DNA of 33,149 nucleotides from Fibrobacter sp. UWEL. Lineage in GTDB: Bacteria > Fibrobacterota > Fibrobacteria > Fibrobacterales > Fibrobacteraceae. Location: the NCBI RefSeq assembly GCF_900142535.1, contig NZ_FRBE01000028.1, positions 1-33,149 of the forward strand, in the 5' to 3' direction. Numbering within the stretch: position 1 is the first letter of the stretch; every line of letters starts with the position of its first letter. The position numbers were made by a program, and so were the translations under genes. Of this stretch, positions 3,029 to 32,704 are shown piece by piece. The notes beneath the pieces were generated by a model that was given only the letters and a program-made list of their open reading frames with translations, had not been told where the DNA came from and made no database searches.

Positions 3029-3053
3029 AAAAAAGCACGGCCAGTGCCGTGCT
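3029..3053 (-). terminator. Rho-independent terminator of the TAXI-gltS unit
   Basis: AGCACGGC (3034-3041) pairs with GCCGTGCT (3046-3053) around the loop CAGT. On the minus strand it is followed by a run of six T. It lies 28 bases after the gltS stop and directly before prfA. Confidence 0.8.
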
Positions 3054-3080: not shown

Positions 3081-4271
3081 TTAAAACTGGTTGATAAAGA
3101 ATGTTATGACGAGGCTGTTAATGAAGTCTGCGAACATACTTCCTACGATAGGTACCAGCAGGTAGGGCTTTACTGCCGGAGCAAAGCGGGAGGTGATGGC
3201 CTGCATGTTAGCCATGGCGTTGGGCGTTGCTCCCATGCCGAAACCACAAACACCTGCGGAAAGTACTGCGGCGTCATAATCTCGTCCCATGACGTTAAAT
3301 ACCACGAAGTAGGCGAACAGGAACATGAGTAATGTCTGGGCGCAAAGGAGTACAACCAAGGGGAGGGCGAGGGAAGCCAGCTGCCAAAGTTTCAGGGTGA
3401 TCATGGCGATGCCCAGGAACAGGGAAAGGCAAATGCCGCCCACGTCGCTGATTTCGCCCATATGGACTTCGTACTTGCTGCTGTATTCGCAAATATTGCG
3501 CATGATGGCGGCGACAATCATGGCGCCAATGTAGGCGGGGAAGGTCATGCCGGTCTTGGAAAGCAAAGTGGATACCAGGGTGCCCAAGCCCATGGCAACA
3601 GCTAGCTGGAAGGCTGCGGTGGAGTAGCGCTTGGCGGAGCGGCGGTACTTGCTCTGTTCTTCCTTCAGTTCGGTCTTGTCTTCTGCTTTTGCGGACTTGA
3701 GGAGATCGCGCTTGATGATCAGCTTGCGACCCAGAGGGCCGCCCATGAGGGAGCCTGCTACAAGGCCGAAGGTTGCTGCTGCGGTACAGAGGGTGGTGGC
3801 GCCTTCCATGCCGAAGTCCTCTAGCACGGGGCCGAATGCGCCAGCGGTGCCGTGGCCGCCTACCATGGAAATGGAGCCGGCGGAGAGACCCACCAGGGGA
3901 CTTACGTTCAGCATGTTTGCCAGAGCTACGGCCAGGCCGTTCTGACTGAGAATCAAAACGCAAACACAGACCAGCAGGAGAATCAAGTTGATGCCACCGC
4001 TCTTAAGAATCTTCAGGTTGGCGTTAAAGCCCACGGAGGTGAAGAACACCATCATGCAGATGGATTTGAGGGTTTCGTCAAACTGAAATTCCAGGAGGTT
4101 TAACTTATAGAGAATGCAGGAAAGGAATGCAAACAGGATGCCGCCTACCACAGGGGAGGGAATGCAGAACTTTTCCAGGAACTTGACCTGCTTTTTCAGG
4201 TTGGCGCCAATGACTAACACCACGACGGCCAGGGCCAAGGTCTGATACATGTCCAGAGATAACTTATACAT
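3081..4271 (-). CDS. gltS: Sodium/glutamate symporter GltS
   Basis: GltS family proteins (ESS family) import glutamate with sodium across the inner membrane. The 396 residues match the usual length of about 400 and are hydrophobic throughout, with roughly ten spans. Characteristic stretches are the N-terminal SLDMYQTLALAVVVLVIGAN, the first re-entrant-loop motif GHGTAGAFGP, and a related second half with GFGMGATPNAMANM. The inverted-repeat two-half organisation is visible. The start is set by GGAG five bases upstream (4277-4280 region) and by the end of the preceding gene. It is translated 9 bases after the TAXI receptor gene, so both are almost certainly one transcript. That pairing is unusual for GltS, which normally acts without a binding protein. 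Confidence 0.93.
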   Translation of the reverse strand: MYKLSLDMYQTLALAVVVLVIGANLKKQVKFLEKFCIPSPVVGGILFAFLSCILYKLNLLEFQFDETLKSICMMVFFTSVGFNANLKILKSGGINLILLLVCVCVLILSQNGLAVALANMLNVSPLVGLSAGSISMVGGHGTAGAFGPVLEDFGMEGATTLCTAAATFGLVAGSLMGGPLGRKLIIKRDLLKSAKAEDKTELKEEQSKYRRSAKRYSTAAFQLAVAMGLGTLVSTLLSKTGMTFPAYIGAMIVAAIMRNICEYSSKYEVHMGEISDVGGICLSLFLGIAMITLKLWQLASLALPLVVLLCAQTLLMFLFAYFVVFNVMGRDYDAAVLSAGVCGFGMGATPNAMANMQAITSRFAPAVKPYLLVPIVGSMFADFINSLVITFFINQF

Positions 4272-4280
4272 CAGAACTCC

Positions 4281-5240
4281 TTAGTCGCCCGTAGAGGGAA
4301 TGGGACCGTGGCCCTTTAGCGGGGCGGCAACATCCACGTTAATGTTCTTGGTCTTGTAGAAGGCTGCAGCACCTGGGTGGAATGCTGCGGGAATACCTGC
4401 GGTTTGCTGGGTGCCTACTGCAAATACGTCTGCGGTAATCTTTGTGACGGTGGCGCTATCCAGAAGGAGGCTTGCCACAAGGACTGCCTTTGCGCCTAAG
4501 GTCTGGACGGTAGAATCCTGACCGGCGTAAGTGCCCGCGGGGATTTCGCTTAAGGTCAGTTCCGGATGGAGGCTGGTAATGCGGTTCATGTCGGCGGCGT
4601 CCAGAGAAAGAATGCGGACCTTTTTGTTTGTAGCAAGTTCGCTAATGGAAGGCGTGGGGATGCCTGCGGTGCAGAAGAAGGCGTCAATGCGACCTTCCTT
4701 CAGGGCGGTGGCGGCATCCTTGAAGTTGAGGTTTTCTGTCTGAATTTTCTCGAAGGAAATGCCGTAAGCTTCCAGGATGATTTCTGCGTTACGCAGCACA
4801 CCGGATTCTTCTTCGCCTACGGAAACCTTGTGGCCTTGAAGGTCGGCAACCGTCTTGATGTCTGAATCTGCGGAAACTACAATCTGGACGGATTCGGCGT
4901 AAAGACCTGCCACCGCTGCGATGGCGGAACCCATGCGATTGCGCATCAGGTAATCCTTGAGAATATCGGCCTGGACAATCCCCAGGTCAATAAAGCCTTC
5001 TTCCATCAGGCGGATATTTGCGGATGAACCGGCGGTGTTCTTGGCCTGAATCTGCAGGTCCTGATGTTCAGAATTGAACTTGGCGGTAAAGGAGGTGGCG
5101 AACTGATCGTAGAGACCGCCCTTGTTACCGGAACCAAATCGGATATTCTGTTTTTCTGAGTCACAGGCCCCGAGAATCAGTGCCGTGGTTGCCAAAATGG
5201 CAGAGGCAAGAGCCTTGAATGTAAAAGTCGAATGTTTCAT
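4281..5240 (-). CDS. TAXI-family solute-binding lipoprotein next to gltS
   Basis: This 319-residue protein begins at the ATG at 5238-5240 (MKHSTFTFKALASAIL), preceded by CTGGAG. It has a signal peptide ending in the lipobox LGAC (Cys26), so it should be a membrane-anchored periplasmic lipoprotein. The mature part starts FGSGNKGGLYDQFATSF and includes NTAGSSANIRLMEEGFIDLGIVQAD (given here as the NTAGSSANIRL and DLGIVQAD blocks). These are the signature parts of TAXI-type TRAP receptors, which bind dicarboxylates, glutamate-like or related solutes. No DctQ/DctM-type membrane subunits are nearby; instead gltS follows after 9 bases. I infer that it delivers substrate to GltS or senses it. A divergent promoter region (5241-5297) is shared with trmO. 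Confidence 0.88.
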   Translation of the reverse strand: MKHSTFTFKALASAILATTALILGACDSEKQNIRFGSGNKGGLYDQFATSFTAKFNSEHQDLQIQAKNTAGSSANIRLMEEGFIDLGIVQADILKDYLMRNRMGSAIAAVAGLYAESVQIVVSADSDIKTVADLQGHKVSVGEEESGVLRNAEIILEAYGISFEKIQTENLNFKDAATALKEGRIDAFFCTAGIPTPSISELATNKKVRILSLDAADMNRITSLHPELTLSEIPAGTYAGQDSTVQTLGAKAVLVASLLLDSATVTKITADVFAVGTQQTAGIPAAFHPGAAAFYKTKNINVDVAAPLKGHGPIPSTGD

Positions 5241-5297
5241 TGGAAAACTCCAGTGGAATATGGACGAGCCCAAAGATAGAAAATCTAAATTTGGCGC

Positions 5298-6095
5298 ATG
5301 GAAGTAAATCCCATTGGAACTTTTTTTGGCGATGCTGTATACAAGTATGACGCTCCCCGACAGGGCCGCCTATTTGCGGGACATCCTGGCCGAATCGTCC
5401 TGAATTCCGGATGCAATTTTGAAATGGCCCTCCGTGACTTGGATGGCTTTGAACGTATCTGGGTCATCTTCCAGTTCCATGAAAATGAGGGATGGCGCCC
5501 TACCACGCGACCGCCCGTTCCTGCTCCTGGTAGAGACCGGGTGGGGACATTTGCCAGCCGTTCTCCTTACCGCCCTAATTCCATTGGCTTAAGCTGCGTT
5601 CGCCTTCTGAAAGTAGATGGGCTTACTTTGTATGTGGATGAGGCTGACCTGCTGAACGAAACTCCCGTTTTGGATGTGAAACCCTACATTCCTATGGCGG
5701 ATGCGTTTCCCAATGCGAAAGCCGGCTGGGTGGACGAACAGGAAGGTGAAAAATGGAGCGTGGAAACTTCTGAAAAGTTTGCTGCTCAGAACCAGTGGAT
5801 CGGGGAGAATAGCGAGTTCGACCTGATGAGCTTTGCCCTGGTGCAGCTAGGTCGCGGTGGCTTTAGCAATGGTGTTTTTGACGGTACCCGACGCCGCTTG
5901 ACTTTGGATGAAAATACCAAGACAGGCGTGCTGGCCTATCGCACTTTTAGAATCGATTTTATTTATGATGAAAACACCAAATCCGTGACCCTGCAGGCCA
6001 TACGGTCTGGTTATTCAAAAGACGATCTGGAGGAAGGTGCCCCGGATAAGTGGGGCGACAAACCGCTTCACCGTAATTTTCTGAAGAAATTCTAG
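5298..6095 (+). CDS. trmO: tRNA (t6A37) N6-methyltransferase TrmO (TsaA family)
   Basis: TrmO (TsaA/YaeB) methylates N6-threonylcarbamoyladenosine at position 37 of a threonine tRNA, using AdoMet. The 265-residue product starts MEVNPIGTFFGDAVYKYDAP, has the core FERIWVIFQFHEN and the AdoMet-site motif SPYRPNSIGLSCVRLL (family consensus RPNPIGLS). It also has the C-terminal extension with FDGTRRRLTLDENTKTG and YRTFRIDFIYDE typical of full-length TrmO. Length is close to the E. coli enzyme. The stop overlaps the stop of the facing diguanylate cyclase by four bases (CTAG at 6092-6095), leaving no room for a terminator between them. Confidence 0.9.
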   Translation: MEVNPIGTFFGDAVYKYDAPRQGRLFAGHPGRIVLNSGCNFEMALRDLDGFERIWVIFQFHENEGWRPTTRPPVPAPGRDRVGTFASRSPYRPNSIGLSCVRLLKVDGLTLYVDEADLLNETPVLDVKPYIPMADAFPNAKAGWVDEQEGEKWSVETSEKFAAQNQWIGENSEFDLMSFALVQLGRGGFSNGVFDGTRRRLTLDENTKTGVLAYRTFRIDFIYDENTKSVTLQAIRSGYSKDDLEEGAPDKWGDKPLHRNFLKKF

Positions 6096-7597
6096 CCTCT
6101 GTAGAAAGTGAATGCCTTGCCGTTCACTTTCTTGCTTTCGTAAGTGCAGCTGTCTGCCTGGCTGTACAAGTCATCGAAGGAAAGCCCTTCCTTGGTGAAG
6201 GTTGCGCCAATGCTTACGGAAATGCTGTAGTCCGGGATGCAACCGATGGAAACCTTTTCGAAGCGATCGAAGAGTCGGTTGAATACGTTGGTTGCGATTC
6301 GTTCGGAATCCACGTTGCTGATGAAGAAGACAAATTCATCACCGCCTAGACGAAGGATGATATCCACGTCACGGAAGGTTGCCTTGAGAGTGTCTGCTAC
6401 GGCAATGATTACGCGGTCGCCGGCTTGATGGCCGTAAGTATCGTTGATGTGCTTGAACTTGTCCACGTCCAGAAGGCACAGCATGCCAGGCGTTTTCAGA
6501 CCCATCAGTTTTTTAATCTTGGGAATGCCTGCTCGACGATTGTAGAGACCTGTCATACCATCGGTTTCTGCGATGGCGGTCAATTCCTTTTCGCGTTTCT
6601 TCTGCTCGTTAATACTTTCGATGAGGAACATGACCTGCTTGATGCTTTCGTCGCGCCTGCGGTCCACCACAATGTAGCGGGCGCGGCACCAGCCATAGTT
6701 CTTCCCCAGGAATTCGTAAGTGATGGTATCTTCGTCTTCAAGGCGAGTCTGCAAGGTGCTGGGGTCAACGAATGCCATGACGGCTTCCACATAGTCCGGA
6801 TCTACTGCGGACTTGACCACATCGGCAATCTGCTTGGAGTATCCTTCGTGGTTGTTTTTCAGGGCCGCATCCACCAGCTCGTGAGAACGAATCTGGATGA
6901 AGGTATCATTTTCAAGATTGATCTGGTTCATGGAAAGGTAGATGTTGGAAATGGATTTCCAATATTTCATCTGTTCGCTTTCGTTCTGCATTTCCTGAAT
7001 GCGGTGTGACAAGAGGTATCGTTCCGTTCTGGACTTGTTAAAGAATAACCCGATGCCCACACCTGCTGCGCCAAAGATAAGGACGTCTGCAACAGAAATT
7101 CCGATTTGTTCTTCCGGGACCATGGTGGTTCCAAGAACGGTAAATAGGATGGCGGTGGCTCCAAAGTCAATAAATAGACGGGCTGGGGCATCGATAAAAA
7201 TGGTGGGAATCAAGCAGAGGAATACGACCAGAATCAGGGGGCGGTCTTCAGGAGAAATAAAGACTGCCTGGTAGAGGGCAAAAATATAAAGGGGTGCGAC
7301 AAACAGAGAGATGAGTATTGCCTGAAGTTTCTTGCTCGGTCTCTTGATGAGATTGTTGATGACAATGACGCTGATGTTGAGGAGGAATACGATTAAGTAT
7401 CCCTTGAAACATTGACGCATGACTGCAATGTCCGTAAATAGGCCGCCTAGGGTACCGGAGGCGGTGGCTGCAGCGGAAAGTGCGGCAAACAAGGTCAGCG
7501 AACGTCGATTGGCTGCCCAAAGCTTAGGACGAATCGGTTCAAGTTCTTCTGCCTTGAATATGCCGTTTGCGAAAAAGTTCAGCAATTTCTTAATCAT
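6092..7597 (-). CDS. Membrane-bound diguanylate cyclase with PAS-like middle region
   Basis: Makes cyclic di-GMP from two GTP. The 501-residue protein has an N-terminal membrane region with about six spans (residues 30-190) and a PAS-like segment around 205-330 (YEFLGKNYGWCRARYIVVDRR region). A GGDEF domain runs from about 340 to the end, starting with DGMTGLYNRRAG. The active site reads RLGGDEF (GGDEF at about 418-422). An RxxD inhibitory site (RDVD) lies five residues before it, so product inhibition is expected. AAGGAG is well placed before the ATG at 7597. The membrane and PAS-like parts probably sense a signal, but the ligand cannot be read from sequence. Convergent with trmO, overlapping at the stop codons. 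Confidence 0.92.
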   Translation of the reverse strand: MIKKLLNFFANGIFKAEELEPIRPKLWAANRRSLTLFAALSAAATASGTLGGLFTDIAVMRQCFKGYLIVFLLNISVIVINNLIKRPSKKLQAILISLFVAPLYIFALYQAVFISPEDRPLILVVFLCLIPTIFIDAPARLFIDFGATAILFTVLGTTMVPEEQIGISVADVLIFGAAGVGIGLFFNKSRTERYLLSHRIQEMQNESEQMKYWKSISNIYLSMNQINLENDTFIQIRSHELVDAALKNNHEGYSKQIADVVKSAVDPDYVEAVMAFVDPSTLQTRLEDEDTITYEFLGKNYGWCRARYIVVDRRRDESIKQVMFLIESINEQKKREKELTAIAETDGMTGLYNRRAGIPKIKKLMGLKTPGMLCLLDVDKFKHINDTYGHQAGDRVIIAVADTLKATFRDVDIILRLGGDEFVFFISNVDSERIATNVFNRLFDRFEKVSIGCIPDYSISVSIGATFTKEGLSFDDLYSQADSCTYESKKVNGKAFTFYRG

Positions 7598-16544: not shown

Positions 16545-17696
16545 TTATCTGTGGCGGCGGTCGTTTTCGCTGCAGGTGGCGTAATAGGACTTCTTGTTCT
16601 CGTACATGGCGTGGTCGATGGAATTGATGAACGAGTCCATGGTGTCTTTCTTCAGGTCCAGCAGTCCTTCACCGATGGAGGTGGACAGCCTGAAGGGTTC
16701 CTTGGTATTCTGGTTGAACTTTTCCAGACGATATTGAATTTCGTGGATTACACGTTCCGAAATATTCTGGTCCTGGGTGTTCAGCAGAATGATAAATTCG
16801 TCACCTGCATAACGGATGGCGACGCCATAATTTCGGATGGACTTCTGAAGGATGTCCGCCATGGCGATGAGGGCTCGGTCACCTACAGAATGGCCGTAAT
16901 CGTCGTTGATCTTCTTGAAGGAATTCAGGTCCAGCATCATGCCAGTCATGACGTTCCTGCGCTTTCGTGAGAACAAATTCAGGTGGAAGTCCAGGTACAC
17001 GCGGTTGTAGAGCCCCGTCAGTCTGTCCCTGAAGATCAGTTCGTTCTGTAAGCTTGAGAAAATCCCGGCAATAGCAATGGCAAGGCCTGCAGAAATGGTT
17101 GAAACGCCATAGAAAATCGTCTGGGCAAGAGTGCCCAACATCAGGGGGAAGAAATAGACCCAGATGGGGAAGTACTTCAGGATGCCGTTACGCATGCGAC
17201 TCCAGAAGTAGACCACGATACTGTCCATGGTAATGCCGTAGTCAATGATGGTATAGGCCCAGTAGCCCCACAGGCGCTGGTAAACATTATGTTCATCAAT
17301 GGAGAAGGCGAAGGGACAGATGAGATTTACAAAAATACCGATGGTTCCCAGCCCTACAATCACCTTTAGGATGGCCTTATGAAGCTTGGATACGCCACCG
17401 CAAATATGCTGGGAAAGGAAGACGAACCACAGAGTGGAGCAGAACATATTGGAACCGTAAAGCCAGGTGTTTCCAATGATGTTTATGTATCTAGCGGTGT
17501 CTCCGCTTTTTCCTTCCGCGGTAAAAACGATGGGGTCCACAACGCAGTTCAGGAAACCGAGGATCAGCATCGTCATCAGGGCAACGCTTTCAACATTCTT
17601 GCGGGGGAGTTTCCAGAAATTGCCAGCAGCAACAACGGCCAGAAGAACTGCACCGAAAACGTTGGCAATGTATATACACATTAAGGACGAATCCAT
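16545..17696 (-). CDS. Membrane diguanylate cyclase with AGDEF motif
   Basis: The 383-residue protein has a large N-terminal membrane sensor with about seven spans (residues 5-215). A GGDEF domain follows, starting with DRLTGLYNRVYLDFHL. The signature reads RYAGDEF (residues 297-301). The first Gly is Ala, a variant known to be active in some cyclases. The RxxD inhibitory site is missing (RNYG at that place), so feedback control should be absent. The domain still has the Mg-binding first Asp (MLDLNSFKKIND) and the TSIGEG strand. The ATG at 17696 is followed by an alternative at 17681. It lies 23 bases after the M16 peptidase gene on the same strand and may be co-transcribed. Confidence 0.9.
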   Translation of the reverse strand: MDSSLMCIYIANVFGAVLLAVVAAGNFWKLPRKNVESVALMTMLILGFLNCVVDPIVFTAEGKSGDTARYINIIGNTWLYGSNMFCSTLWFVFLSQHICGGVSKLHKAILKVIVGLGTIGIFVNLICPFAFSIDEHNVYQRLWGYWAYTIIDYGITMDSIVVYFWSRMRNGILKYFPIWVYFFPLMLGTLAQTIFYGVSTISAGLAIAIAGIFSSLQNELIFRDRLTGLYNRVYLDFHLNLFSRKRRNVMTGMMLDLNSFKKINDDYGHSVGDRALIAMADILQKSIRNYGVAIRYAGDEFIILLNTQDQNISERVIHEIQYRLEKFNQNTKEPFRLSTSIGEGLLDLKKDTMDSFINSIDHAMYENKKSYYATCSENDRRHR

Positions 17697-25642: not shown

Positions 25643-26602
25643 ATGGAACTTTTAGAAAGAGAAATCTATAAGCGATATATTGAAGTGATGAAGCTGTCGA
25701 ATGTTGTAATTCCGGCTCCTCATCAGAATCCTCGTAAAGTCTCTTTCGATGAATTGCTGGACCAGTATGACGTTTTCTGCTTTGACGGCTACGGCACCTT
25801 GTATAACGGCGGGGACTTTGTGTATCCCGGAGCCCATCAGATGTTTGACTCCCTGCGAGAAGCGGGCAAACAGATGAGGCTTATCACCAATGCGGCGTCT
25901 GACGTAGATAGCGTGCTGGCAAATGCCGCTGTCAGGCGCGGATTTAACTTTACGGAAGCCGAGACAATCTCGTCGGGAAGTCTGCTGAAGTATCTTGCGG
26001 CGGACCTGCGGGACGGCAAGCGCGTTGCCGACGGACGCCCTAGAAAGCTGGATGAAGTTTATTATATCGGACGACAAACTGGCAAGAATGTCTTGACTGC
26101 TTGCGGTATAACCGCGGTGGCGCCTGATCATATTCCCAACGAGCCTATTGTAGCCATCTCCTCCTCGAAGGAAACTGCGGAAACATACGCCCGTGCGGTG
26201 GAACTCCTGAAATGTCCCGGCGCCATTTTGCTGGTGCTGAATTCCGACGCCTGGGCCCCGAAAATTGATGGATCCCGTGAGCCTGTTTCTGGCGCCTTAA
26301 GTGAACGCCTCCGTCGTGATTCCATGTGCGAGGCCAACGGCAACGAAGGCTGCACAACCTTCTATTTGGGGAAACCTTTCCCTGCTATCTGGGAAAAACT
26401 CAAGACTACCATTCCCGCGGAATTATTTGGTGGCCGCAAGCCCCGAGTGATTATGATGGGAGATACCCTGGGTACGGATGTGCTGGGTGCCCATATTGCC
26501 GGTTTTGATAGTTGCCTCCTGGTAGGTCGTAACCAGCCGGCGGCTGAACTTTTTGAAGATCAGGACTACTTAGGAGTAACCCCTAATTACTACATTGAAT
26601 AA
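25643..26602 (+). CDS. HAD-IIA (NagD/PGP-like) hydrolase with DGYGT nucleophile motif
   Basis: Haloacid-dehalogenase superfamily protein, cap type IIA. Motif I is VFCFDGYGTLYNGG (nucleophile Asp48), motif II RLITNAASD, and motif IV IMMGDTLGTDVLGAHIAG. The C2a-type cap lies between residues about 85 and 230. The second aspartate of the usual DxDxT is Tyr (DGYGT). The Asp acts as acid/base in phosphatases, whereas dehalogenases often have Tyr there, so a normal phosphatase activity is uncertain. Length (319) is slightly above typical NagD because of an N-terminal extension of about 40 residues. Two starts are possible: the ATG at 25643 and the ATG at 25688 (MKLSNVVIPAP); neither has a strong ribosome-binding site. 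Confidence 0.85.
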   Translation: MELLEREIYKRYIEVMKLSNVVIPAPHQNPRKVSFDELLDQYDVFCFDGYGTLYNGGDFVYPGAHQMFDSLREAGKQMRLITNAASDVDSVLANAAVRRGFNFTEAETISSGSLLKYLAADLRDGKRVADGRPRKLDEVYYIGRQTGKNVLTACGITAVAPDHIPNEPIVAISSSKETAETYARAVELLKCPGAILLVLNSDAWAPKIDGSREPVSGALSERLRRDSMCEANGNEGCTTFYLGKPFPAIWEKLKTTIPAELFGGRKPRVIMMGDTLGTDVLGAHIAGFDSCLLVGRNQPAAELFEDQDYLGVTPNYYIE

Positions 26603-26618
26603 AGTATTAGGAGGATTT

Positions 26619-28049
26619 ATGAAGTGGTTTTTAGTTGTGTTGGCCTCCCTCTTCTTATGGGGATGCTATAGTGACGACGAAACGGTCCTTTACACGGTTG
26701 GTTTTCAGGGGGAATACGGCTCCTTTGTAGATAGTCGTGATGGCGAAACCTACAAGACCGTTGTCATTGGCGATCAGGAATGGATGGCCGAGAATTTAAG
26801 ATATAACGTGCCTGAGGATAGCCAATTTTACAGTTGGACCAAAGCCATTGTGGCGTGTCCGGATGGATGGCATTTGCCCACCACGGAAGAATGGAATGAA
26901 CTTGTGGAATTTGCGTCCCGTGACGGCGCGGCCTTTTTTGCTTTGGCGGAAGAGGATGGCTTTGAGGGGTACGTAGGTTCCAATTCAACGGGTTTTTCTG
27001 CCAAGGCGGTTCCTTTCGTGCAAAATTATGGCACGGTAGGTTTTTTCCCCGATCGTATTCGCTATTGGTCGTTTGAAGAAGGGGAATGGCTGGGGTTCCT
27101 CTGGTCGGGAACCTATGTTCGTTTTGGCAACAAAAAAGTTGAGACGGACCAGATTGGCTATTACGATGCCTATAAGTATCCTGTTCGATGCATTAAGGGT
27201 AAGGCTCCCGAAAGAAGCGACGCCTATTATTCGTTGTTGCGTTCTTCATCTTCGTTCCGTTCGTCTAGCTCGTCCAGCGTTAAGGACTTGAGTTCCAGCA
27301 GTTCCTCTGAGGAGTATTCCTGTAGTTCCTCCGAGGCGTCCTCCAGTAGCGTTGTAGAGGAATCGTCTAGCAGTTTATTCCCCGCAAGCTCAAGTACGCT
27401 TGTATTTGTAGATCCGTCGGAAGTAGTGCGTGATTCTTTTGTGGATGCAAGAGATGGACAAGTTTATAAATCCGTAAAGATTGGCGATCAGACTTGGATG
27501 GCGGAAAACCTGAACTTTGCTGTGGATTCAAGTTTCTGTTATAATGATGAACCGGATAATTGCGAAAAATATGGCCGCCTGTATCAGTGGTCTGCCGCAA
27601 TGGATTCCGTTGGAACATTTAGCGAAACTGCAAAGGGATGTGGTTATAATGTCTTGTGCGACTCTCTTGGAACGGCCCGTGGGGTGTGTCCCGAAGGTTG
27701 GCATATTCCCACGGAGGATGAAGCTGCTATCCTGCTGGGTTCTGTGGATAAGACCGTCTCTGAAGGCGCTGAGGTGGAGTACGCAAAGGGCAACGAATTG
27801 AAATCTGCCCTGGACTGGGATGGCGAAATGGATGCCTATGGCTTTGGGGCTCTGCCTTCGGGAATTCGTGCCCAGAATGGAAATTACTCCTATTTGGGCT
27901 CGACGGGGAATTTATGGTTGGCAAGCCCGGCCGTGAATAATCATGTGAAGGAAAATGCCCTGATCTTTGCAATCGGGGATTACTATGGGTCGTTGCGCTA
28001 TAGTTCAAATAAATCCCACGGCATTGCCGTGAGATGCTTGAAAGATTAA
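26619..28049 (+). CDS. Two-domain FISUMP lipoprotein with poly-serine linker
   Basis: The strong AGGAGG at 26609-26614 sets the start at the ATG at 26619 (MKWFLVVLASLFLWGCYSDD), giving 476 residues. The signal peptide ends in lipobox LWGC (Cys16). Two FISUMP domains follow. The first (about 37-205) has FVDSRDGETYKTVVIGDQEW, CPDGWHLPTTEEW and YPVRCIKG. The second (about 271-476) has FVDARDGQVYKSVKIGDQTW, CPEGWHIPTEDE and GIAVRCLKD. A serine-rich linker of about 45 residues (215-262) joins them. This domain is expanded in Fibrobacter; its function is not established, and surface exposure is the usual inference. The gene follows the HAD gene by 16 bases. Confidence 0.9.
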   Translation: MKWFLVVLASLFLWGCYSDDETVLYTVGFQGEYGSFVDSRDGETYKTVVIGDQEWMAENLRYNVPEDSQFYSWTKAIVACPDGWHLPTTEEWNELVEFASRDGAAFFALAEEDGFEGYVGSNSTGFSAKAVPFVQNYGTVGFFPDRIRYWSFEEGEWLGFLWSGTYVRFGNKKVETDQIGYYDAYKYPVRCIKGKAPERSDAYYSLLRSSSSFRSSSSSSVKDLSSSSSSEEYSCSSSEASSSSVVEESSSSLFPASSSTLVFVDPSEVVRDSFVDARDGQVYKSVKIGDQTWMAENLNFAVDSSFCYNDEPDNCEKYGRLYQWSAAMDSVGTFSETAKGCGYNVLCDSLGTARGVCPEGWHIPTEDEAAILLGSVDKTVSEGAEVEYAKGNELKSALDWDGEMDAYGFGALPSGIRAQNGNYSYLGSTGNLWLASPAVNNHVKENALIFAIGDYYGSLRYSSNKSHGIAVRCLKD

Positions 28050-31711: not shown

Positions 31712-32704
31712 TTATTTCTTTCCGACGATCTGGTCTCGGCCATTTGTCTTTGCCATATAAAGACGTTCGTCCACTGCGGTCAAAAGCTTGTCGTGGTTGT
31801 TGAACTCGGGATTGGCGCAATCCACAAAACCGCCACTGATATGAATACGTACGTTGGGCTGGTCGTCAAATTTTAGGCAGGATACCTTGTATCGGAATTG
31901 TTCTGCCTTTACCATTGCCTTGTCGTAGCTTTCGTCACGGATGAGCAGGATGAATTCCTCACCGCCATAACGGACCGCCATTTCCCCTTCTTCGCAGCAG
32001 GTATCCTGTGCCACCTTGCCGATTGCTGTAAGAACGTGGTCTCCAAAGACGTGACCGAAGTTATCGTTCACTCGCTTGAAAAAATCTACGTCAAACATCA
32101 GTAAGTAGAATCCTGCAGGATTTTTTAGTACGTTATTCCGAATAACTTCAATAAAACTGCGCCTGTTATACAGACCTGTCAGGGGATCGTGAGAGGAAAG
32201 GTAATCCAGTTTGGTAATCAGTTCGTCCTTATCCTTTTTTTCGCGATTATAGGCTTTCAGCAGGTAAGACACCGTGGTGAAAATCATAAGTCCCATAAAT
32301 ATAAAGGATACCGCCTGGTCCACGATTGTGTCAAAAGGCTCCAAATTTGGGGAATAATTCGGAAAGTAATAGTCCACGAAGAAGATGACCGTATACAATG
32401 TGATGGAGTACACCAGCATGATACTGCGAGGCTTGAACTTGGAAATTAGGGATGAAATGAGAATGCTGGTGAGGCAATAGAATGGCATGCCGCAATCAAA
32501 TGCACCGCAAATGAAAAACATAGGGGGCAAAATTAACGTGTTGATGCCAAAGCACATGGCCGTATAGCCCGCTTCTGTCTTGTGAGAGACGAATACGATT
32601 GCGCCTAGAACCACAAAATATAAGGTGATGAAGGCCGTATAAATCACTGCCAATGCACCAAGGTCTTCAATGGCGGTGAATATGGTGGAGGCAATTGCTG
32701 CCAC
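31712..32704 (-). CDS. Membrane diguanylate cyclase (GGEEF), N-terminus uncertain
   Basis: From a GTG start at 32704 the product has 330 residues: about six membrane spans (to residue 140), a short coiled region (KAYNREKKDKDELITK) and a GGDEF domain beginning DPLTGLYNRRSF. The signature reads RYGGEEF (247-251). No RxxD inhibitory site is present (EEGE at that position). The frame stays open upstream to about 32788 and encodes more plausible protein (a further membrane helix, NVLFWGVLFF). It has no ATG, GTG or TTG before an in-frame TGA at 32791-32789. An ATG at 32792-32790 is one frame off. The true N-terminus is therefore either frameshifted or lost to the nearby IS element. Confidence 0.85.
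   Translation of the reverse strand: MAAIASTIFTAIEDLGALAVIYTAFITLYFVVLGAIVFVSHKTEAGYTAMCFGINTLILPPMFFICGAFDCGMPFYCLTSILISSLISKFKPRSIMLVYSITLYTVIFFVDYYFPNYSPNLEPFDTIVDQAVSFIFMGLMIFTTVSYLLKAYNREKKDKDELITKLDYLSSHDPLTGLYNRRSFIEVIRNNVLKNPAGFYLLMFDVDFFKRVNDNFGHVFGDHVLTAIGKVAQDTCCEEGEMAVRYGGEEFILLIRDESYDKAMVKAEQFRYKVSCLKFDDQPNVRIHISGGFVDCANPEFNNHDKLLTAVDERLYMAKTNGRDQIVGKK

Follow-up and report, generated by a model that had tools for sequence, protein, structure and literature searches.

Our analysis indicates that two adjacent minus-strand genes of Fibrobacter sp. UWEL, encoding a TAXI-family solute-binding lipoprotein (4281..5240) and the sodium/glutamate symporter GltS (3081..4271), very probably specify a secondary transporter of the TAXI–GltS class, one that has two components and depends on its receptor. 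This assignment, drawn from sequence, concerns a pair of genes lying in a window of 33,149 nucleotides, the whole stretch of DNA that was analysed. The architecture itself has been known since 2025, when Jaques et al. (Commun Biol, August 2025; PMC12344293) first published the TAXI–GltS arrangement and proposed that the receptor feeds GltS; the Fibrobacter pair is a further, conventional-size member. Hence, the original prediction, namely that a TAXI receptor might deliver its ligand to GltS in a different kind of transporter, is supported as a reading and coincides with the published proposal, but the architecture is not new and glutamate delivery is something that we infer.

The predicted GltS (396 aa) scores 369 bits against TIGR00210 (cut-off 311) and 389 bits against PF03616, likewise over cut-off, with its motifs GGHGTAGAFG and CGFGMGATPNAMANM intact; the equivalog match together with the GGHGT and GFGMGATPNA motifs places it in the ESS family, and no solved structure matching its sequence was found. 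The TAXI protein (319 aa, ATG start) reaches 207 bits against TIGR02122 (TRAP_TAXI; cut-off 84) and 151 bits against PF16868, again over cut-off. A lipobox, L-G-A-C26, can be read from its sequence, with the Cys invariant among aligned relatives, and points to membrane tethering as a lipoprotein, as expected of the TAXI–GltS class. The coordinates and profiles bear out the layout originally described, i.e., a lipoprotein gene ending 9 bases ahead of gltS on the same strand: the spacer (4272..4280, minus) carries a GGAG ribosome-binding site right behind the TAXI stop codon, the junction reading TAA-GGAG-TTCTG-ATG on the coding strand, and a terminator-like hairpin with a T run (3034..3053, minus) lies 3' of gltS. 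As a hairpin scan returned four terminator-like sites against 2.6 expected, we call the terminator by its location and the quality of the hairpin, not on statistical grounds. A conserved leader with its own GGAG (TATTCCACTGGAGTT.TCCA-ATG; 5241..5260, minus) abuts the TAXI start codon and is near-identical across ten Fibrobacter genomes. Downstream of the pair lies prfA; upstream, its neighbour is a trmO-like gene in divergent orientation. Elsewhere in the window, three genes for GGDEF diguanylate cyclases (6092-7597, 16545-17696 and 31712-32704, all minus) occupy separate places over a 27-kb span, and a Fib_succ_major (PF09603) domain protein is encoded at 26595-28049, which fits a Fibrobacter genome.

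The absence of DctM, originally noted for the window, holds for the entire source genome, which measures 3.53 Mb and is 99.98% complete. In TAXI TRAPs the membrane component is a fused protein (PMC12344293); our whole-genome profile search for a TRAP membrane partner used both PF06808 and TIGR02123, and recovered neither a DctM nor a TAXI-type fused TRAP protein (TRAP_fused). A TRAP partner encoded elsewhere in the genome is accordingly rejected. The same genome has one TAXI over the cut-off and one GltS, both inside the window, the second match to the TAXI profile being a 24-bit fragment on a different contig.

Across 168 genomes of the phylum Fibrobacterota, a true GltS (>350 bits) is found in 12, with a TAXI gene directly upstream in 11 of them. 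The gap between the two genes is 9 nt in all ten Fibrobacter genomes that have a TAXI over the family cut-off (TAAGGAGNNNNNATG) and 11 nt in a genome from a related genus (G150). This distribution leads us to reject a chance adjacency specific to one strain. Of the phylum's TAXIs over the cut-off, 11 adjoin gltS and four adjoin a fused TRAP gene, no gene of the latter kind being detected in any Fibrobacter genome of the survey; one further genome (G020) has a partial TAXI to which neither a GltS nor a TRAP partner could be assigned. The exception among the true GltS is a Fibrobacter MAG, 70% complete (G084; L012, 1-1500), which keeps gltS and the GGAG junction and has lost the TAXI, an unrelated lipoprotein gene resembling the Fibrobacter major paralogous proteins being found upstream of gltS. 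It is a natural TAXI deletion in an incomplete assembly and, as gltS is intact, GltS may act alone there.

Beyond the phylum, scanning one genome per species with an alignment of the Fibrobacter TAXI yielded 79 TAXI loci, mainly from gut and rumen Bacillota, whose flanks were typed by profile search. At 40 of these gltS lies directly downstream, nine have TAXI and GltS joined in one ORF, 22 have a fused TRAP gene downstream, one (Treponema) has a divergent gltS, and seven have neither partner, some of them at contig ends. As the sample is skewed towards the relatives of the query, the 49 of 79 loci with an adjacent or fused GltS do not represent the frequency among all TAXIs; they do extend the adjacency, along with the Fibrobacterota pairs, well past a single strain. 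One pair comes from a 'Bacteroides' MAG and is possibly mis-binned; the same caveat attaches to a TAXI–GltS fusion in a Kiritimatiellae MAG (L117:3917-6097), which lies beyond the Lachnospiraceae fusions of the earlier paper. On the 627-kb plasmid NC_012780.1 of [Eubacterium] eligens ATCC 27750 (L173:824-4197), the TAXI–gltS pair sits 4 nt behind an alanine racemase gene, which might link amino-acid racemisation to the transporter. Two candidates were discarded: the Treponema locus (L134), whose divergent gltS is of the solo type and whose TAXI is TRAP-like, and an ORF that looks secreted and precedes a solo GltS (L155), which is an acetolactate decarboxylase rather than a further receptor.

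Phylogenetic analysis separates the receptor-linked proteins on both sides of the pair. On the GltS side, the 58 proteins linked or fused to a TAXI all group in a single clade of the tree (SH-aLRT 99), which excludes the 20 solo GltS; the Fibrobacter and fusion GltS fall inside it, and its diagnostic residues include T163, Q222, G287, M290 and T292. Likewise, in a Bacillota sample (a second such sample consisted of the same genomes), the Fibrobacter GltS profile gives scores of 587-682 for the four GltS that adjoin an intact TAXI and of at most 463 for all solo ones. In a careful tree of 71 TAXIs, the GltS-linked and TRAP-linked labels separate with two changes, and the odd one out in a quick tree was the Treponema case. 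Pairwise distances of TAXI and GltS are correlated (r=0.71 for 38 pairs, against at most 0.27 in 5000 permutations), which speaks for co-inheritance rather than contact, as shared ancestry alone may yield such a value. In the predicted fold of one natural fusion (L081), both domains are mostly confident and their mutual placement is uncertain, the pTM of 0.59 being too low for us to claim a TAXI/GltS interface; among the Foldseek matches listed for it, the targets are TAXI-like only.

The putative ligand pocket is well conserved. An AlphaFold2 model of the TAXI protein (pLDDT 92.4) has as its nearest solved structures the glutamate-bound TAXI proteins 8u79/1us4 and 9ibo/8s4j (TM 0.74-0.75), in accord with its profile-based family assignment. 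Residue mapping places Y44, S72, Q90, E116, S146-G147 and C190-T191 at the ligand, with Y44, Q90, E116, C190 and T191 corresponding to Y45, Q93, E125, Y200 and M201 of VcGluP. Mutation of VcGluP at Y45 or Q93 lowers glutamate affinity 213-fold or 990-fold, respectively (PMC11574862), and Y44, Q90 and E116 are invariant across the 54 of 54 GltS-linked TAXIs compared. Y200 and M201 are of minor importance for binding, and TtGluBP has Thr at the second of these positions (PMC11574862); their replacement by C190 and T191 means that the exact ligand could differ. The frequency of C190 among the scanned loci is biased, the cysteine having been part of the scan pattern. Taken together with the nanomolar binding of L-glutamate by BP0403, the Bordetella pertussis TAXI (Kd 180 nM; PMC12344293), the sequence and the model make L-glutamate the likely ligand; a TAXI system for 2-oxoglutarate is also cited in that work (PMC12344293).

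A further feature is a C-terminal tail, which in the Fibrobacter TAXI spans roughly the final 14 residues and ends in PSTGD (4284..4325, minus), as delineated by comparison with relatives' tails and by the model, where it is flexible (pLDDT ~54 over the last residues). A tail with a QD or GD motif at or close to its end is present in 25 of 45 GltS-adjacent TAXIs versus none of 26 TRAP-linked ones, and the chain runs 23-29 residues past the last conserved Tyr in the tailed GltS-adjacent proteins versus 6-14 in the TRAP-linked ones. In the TAXI–GltS fusions, it is at the tail position that the chain continues into GltS. We rejected the tail as a universal feature of GltS-linked TAXIs, one whole sub-group of which lacks it; speculatively, it might serve the tailed subgroup as a docking element on GltS or as a tether.

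These features allow the pair to be set against the known systems. Like BP0402 GltS/BP0403 TAXI of B. pertussis, it joins a TAXI lipoprotein and gltS as one unit, with no TRAP membrane gene and with the ligand Tyr and Gln conserved. However, BP0403 has 503 aa, among them an additional domain at the N-terminus and a helical domain for dimerisation, and its gene follows gltS, overlapping it by 3 bp, whereas the Fibrobacter TAXI is a single SBP module encoded upstream of gltS across a 9-nt gap, as in the conventional-size TAXIs adjoining gltS (Fig. 6B in PMC12344293). The elongated tri-domain dimeric SBP, a variant feature not required of conventional-size members, is thus absent from Fibrobacter, which implies that the extra domains are not generally needed for keeping TAXI with gltS. 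The Lachnospiraceae fusions (Fig. 6E in PMC12344293) share the order, TAXI first and GltS second, and the GltS clade, but form one chain with a linker, whereas Fibrobacter has two genes and a TAXI with a free C-terminal tail. With the TAXI–TRAP systems (VcGluP/VcGluQM and Thermus TtGluBP) it shares the SBP fold and ligand residues; their membrane partner, a fused DctQM, has no counterpart in the Fibrobacter genome, which sets the pair outside that class. Solo GltS proteins are of the same symporter family with the same core motifs, but the TAXI-linked ones differ in their own clade and its diagnostic residues. The traits that characterize the TAXI–GltS class, namely contiguous same-strand genes with a short or overlapping junction and no cognate TRAP membrane protein, are both seen in the Fibrobacter pair.

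Briefly, we advance the following plausible mechanism. In the periplasm, the lipid-anchored TAXI would bind L-glutamate, or a molecule very similar to it, with high affinity and close around the ligand. Once docked on the external face of the GltS dimer, it would release the ligand for GltS to import together with Na+ by an elevator movement. The most likely function is hence high-affinity, receptor-delivered Na+/glutamate uptake, with the ligand identity, the docking and the Na+ coupling all being presumptive. The case for a receptor-dependent transporter is built on the fixed 9-nt spacer, the co-conservation of the genes, the lack of a TRAP partner, the separate GltS clade, the distance correlation, the conserved pocket and the affinity of BP0403. 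On the other side stand the TAXI-less gltS of G084, the occurrence of related TAXIs beside sensor genes, the uncertain fusion fold and the C190/T191 replacement.

Some of these observations bear on two other readings. The TAXI could be a glutamate sensor or regulator that, having bound its ligand, adjusts the activity of GltS or of a signalling protein without delivering substrate. Two Oscillospiraceae MAGs in which GltS was not detected lend this some substance, in that a TAXI of the GltS-linked clade directly precedes a gene for a GGDEF protein in one (L112:1218-4387) and for a propeller/HD-GYP sensor in the other (L106:3917-7839). Such TAXIs can therefore have another role, and these loci suggest that the receptor has been redeployed in c-di-GMP signalling. 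The three GGDEF genes of the window also speak for the sensor reading, though they belong to transcription units other than TAXI–gltS, and there is no sensor gene within the Fibrobacter operon. With gltS as the TAXI neighbour at short spacing in by far the greater part of the clade, and nine loci fused into a single chain, we regard a purely regulatory role as improbable for the Fibrobacter protein. We give equally little credence to the two genes being independent, glutamate-related occupants of a shared operon, with GltS working alone and the TAXI being an orphan receptor or feeding some other partner. Such independence would accord with most GltS proteins operating without a receptor (PMC12344293) and with the retention of gltS without a TAXI in G084; against it, the TAXI-linked GltS form a clade separate from the solo ones, natural fusions exist, and the genome has no TRAP membrane protein for an orphan TAXI to serve. 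The receptor-dependent transporter hence remains our preferred reading.

The receptor-linked GltS clade also has a deviant sister. In Monoglobus pectinilyticus (L174:1963-4182, NZ_OY725736.1), gltS follows 0 nt behind the gene for a BMP/PnrA-type lipoprotein (PF02608, 190 bits), and its GltS branches as sister to the TAXI-linked clade (support 96). The arrangement was seen in one species only, on the plasmid record NZ_OY725736.1 and at a further locus (L183, genome G593); it may represent a second receptor family on GltS. Our search of open-access full texts turned up a single paper that deals with both TAXI and GltS, and no earlier report of the QD/GD tail on GltS-linked TAXIs, the Monoglobus BMP–GltS arrangement or the TAXI–sensor loci in MAGs without a detected GltS; the first two are apparently new to the literature and the third seems to be so. 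A broader evolutionary scenario, which we offer tentatively and consider doubtful, is that symporters of one distinct GltS lineage came to be assisted by a receptor: the TAXI partner would in many cases dock on GltS via a QD/GD tail of near-constant length, a covalent linker taking its place in the fusions, while the closest relative, from Monoglobus, would use an unrelated BMP/PnrA-type receptor in place of the TAXI, making receptors exchangeable on one symporter scaffold.

TAXI–GltS has been described once, from one organism and without a transport assay, and its authors note that the functional coupling calls for experimental verification (PMC12344293). Against this backdrop, Fibrobacter presents a clean test case, as its version is minimal, the receptor being a single module, and its genome encodes just one TAXI and one GltS and lacks a TAXI-type TRAP system. 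Further, the split between solo and receptor-linked GltS clades, the tail motif and the natural loss of a TAXI lead to direct hypotheses on the receptor-dependence of the symporter.
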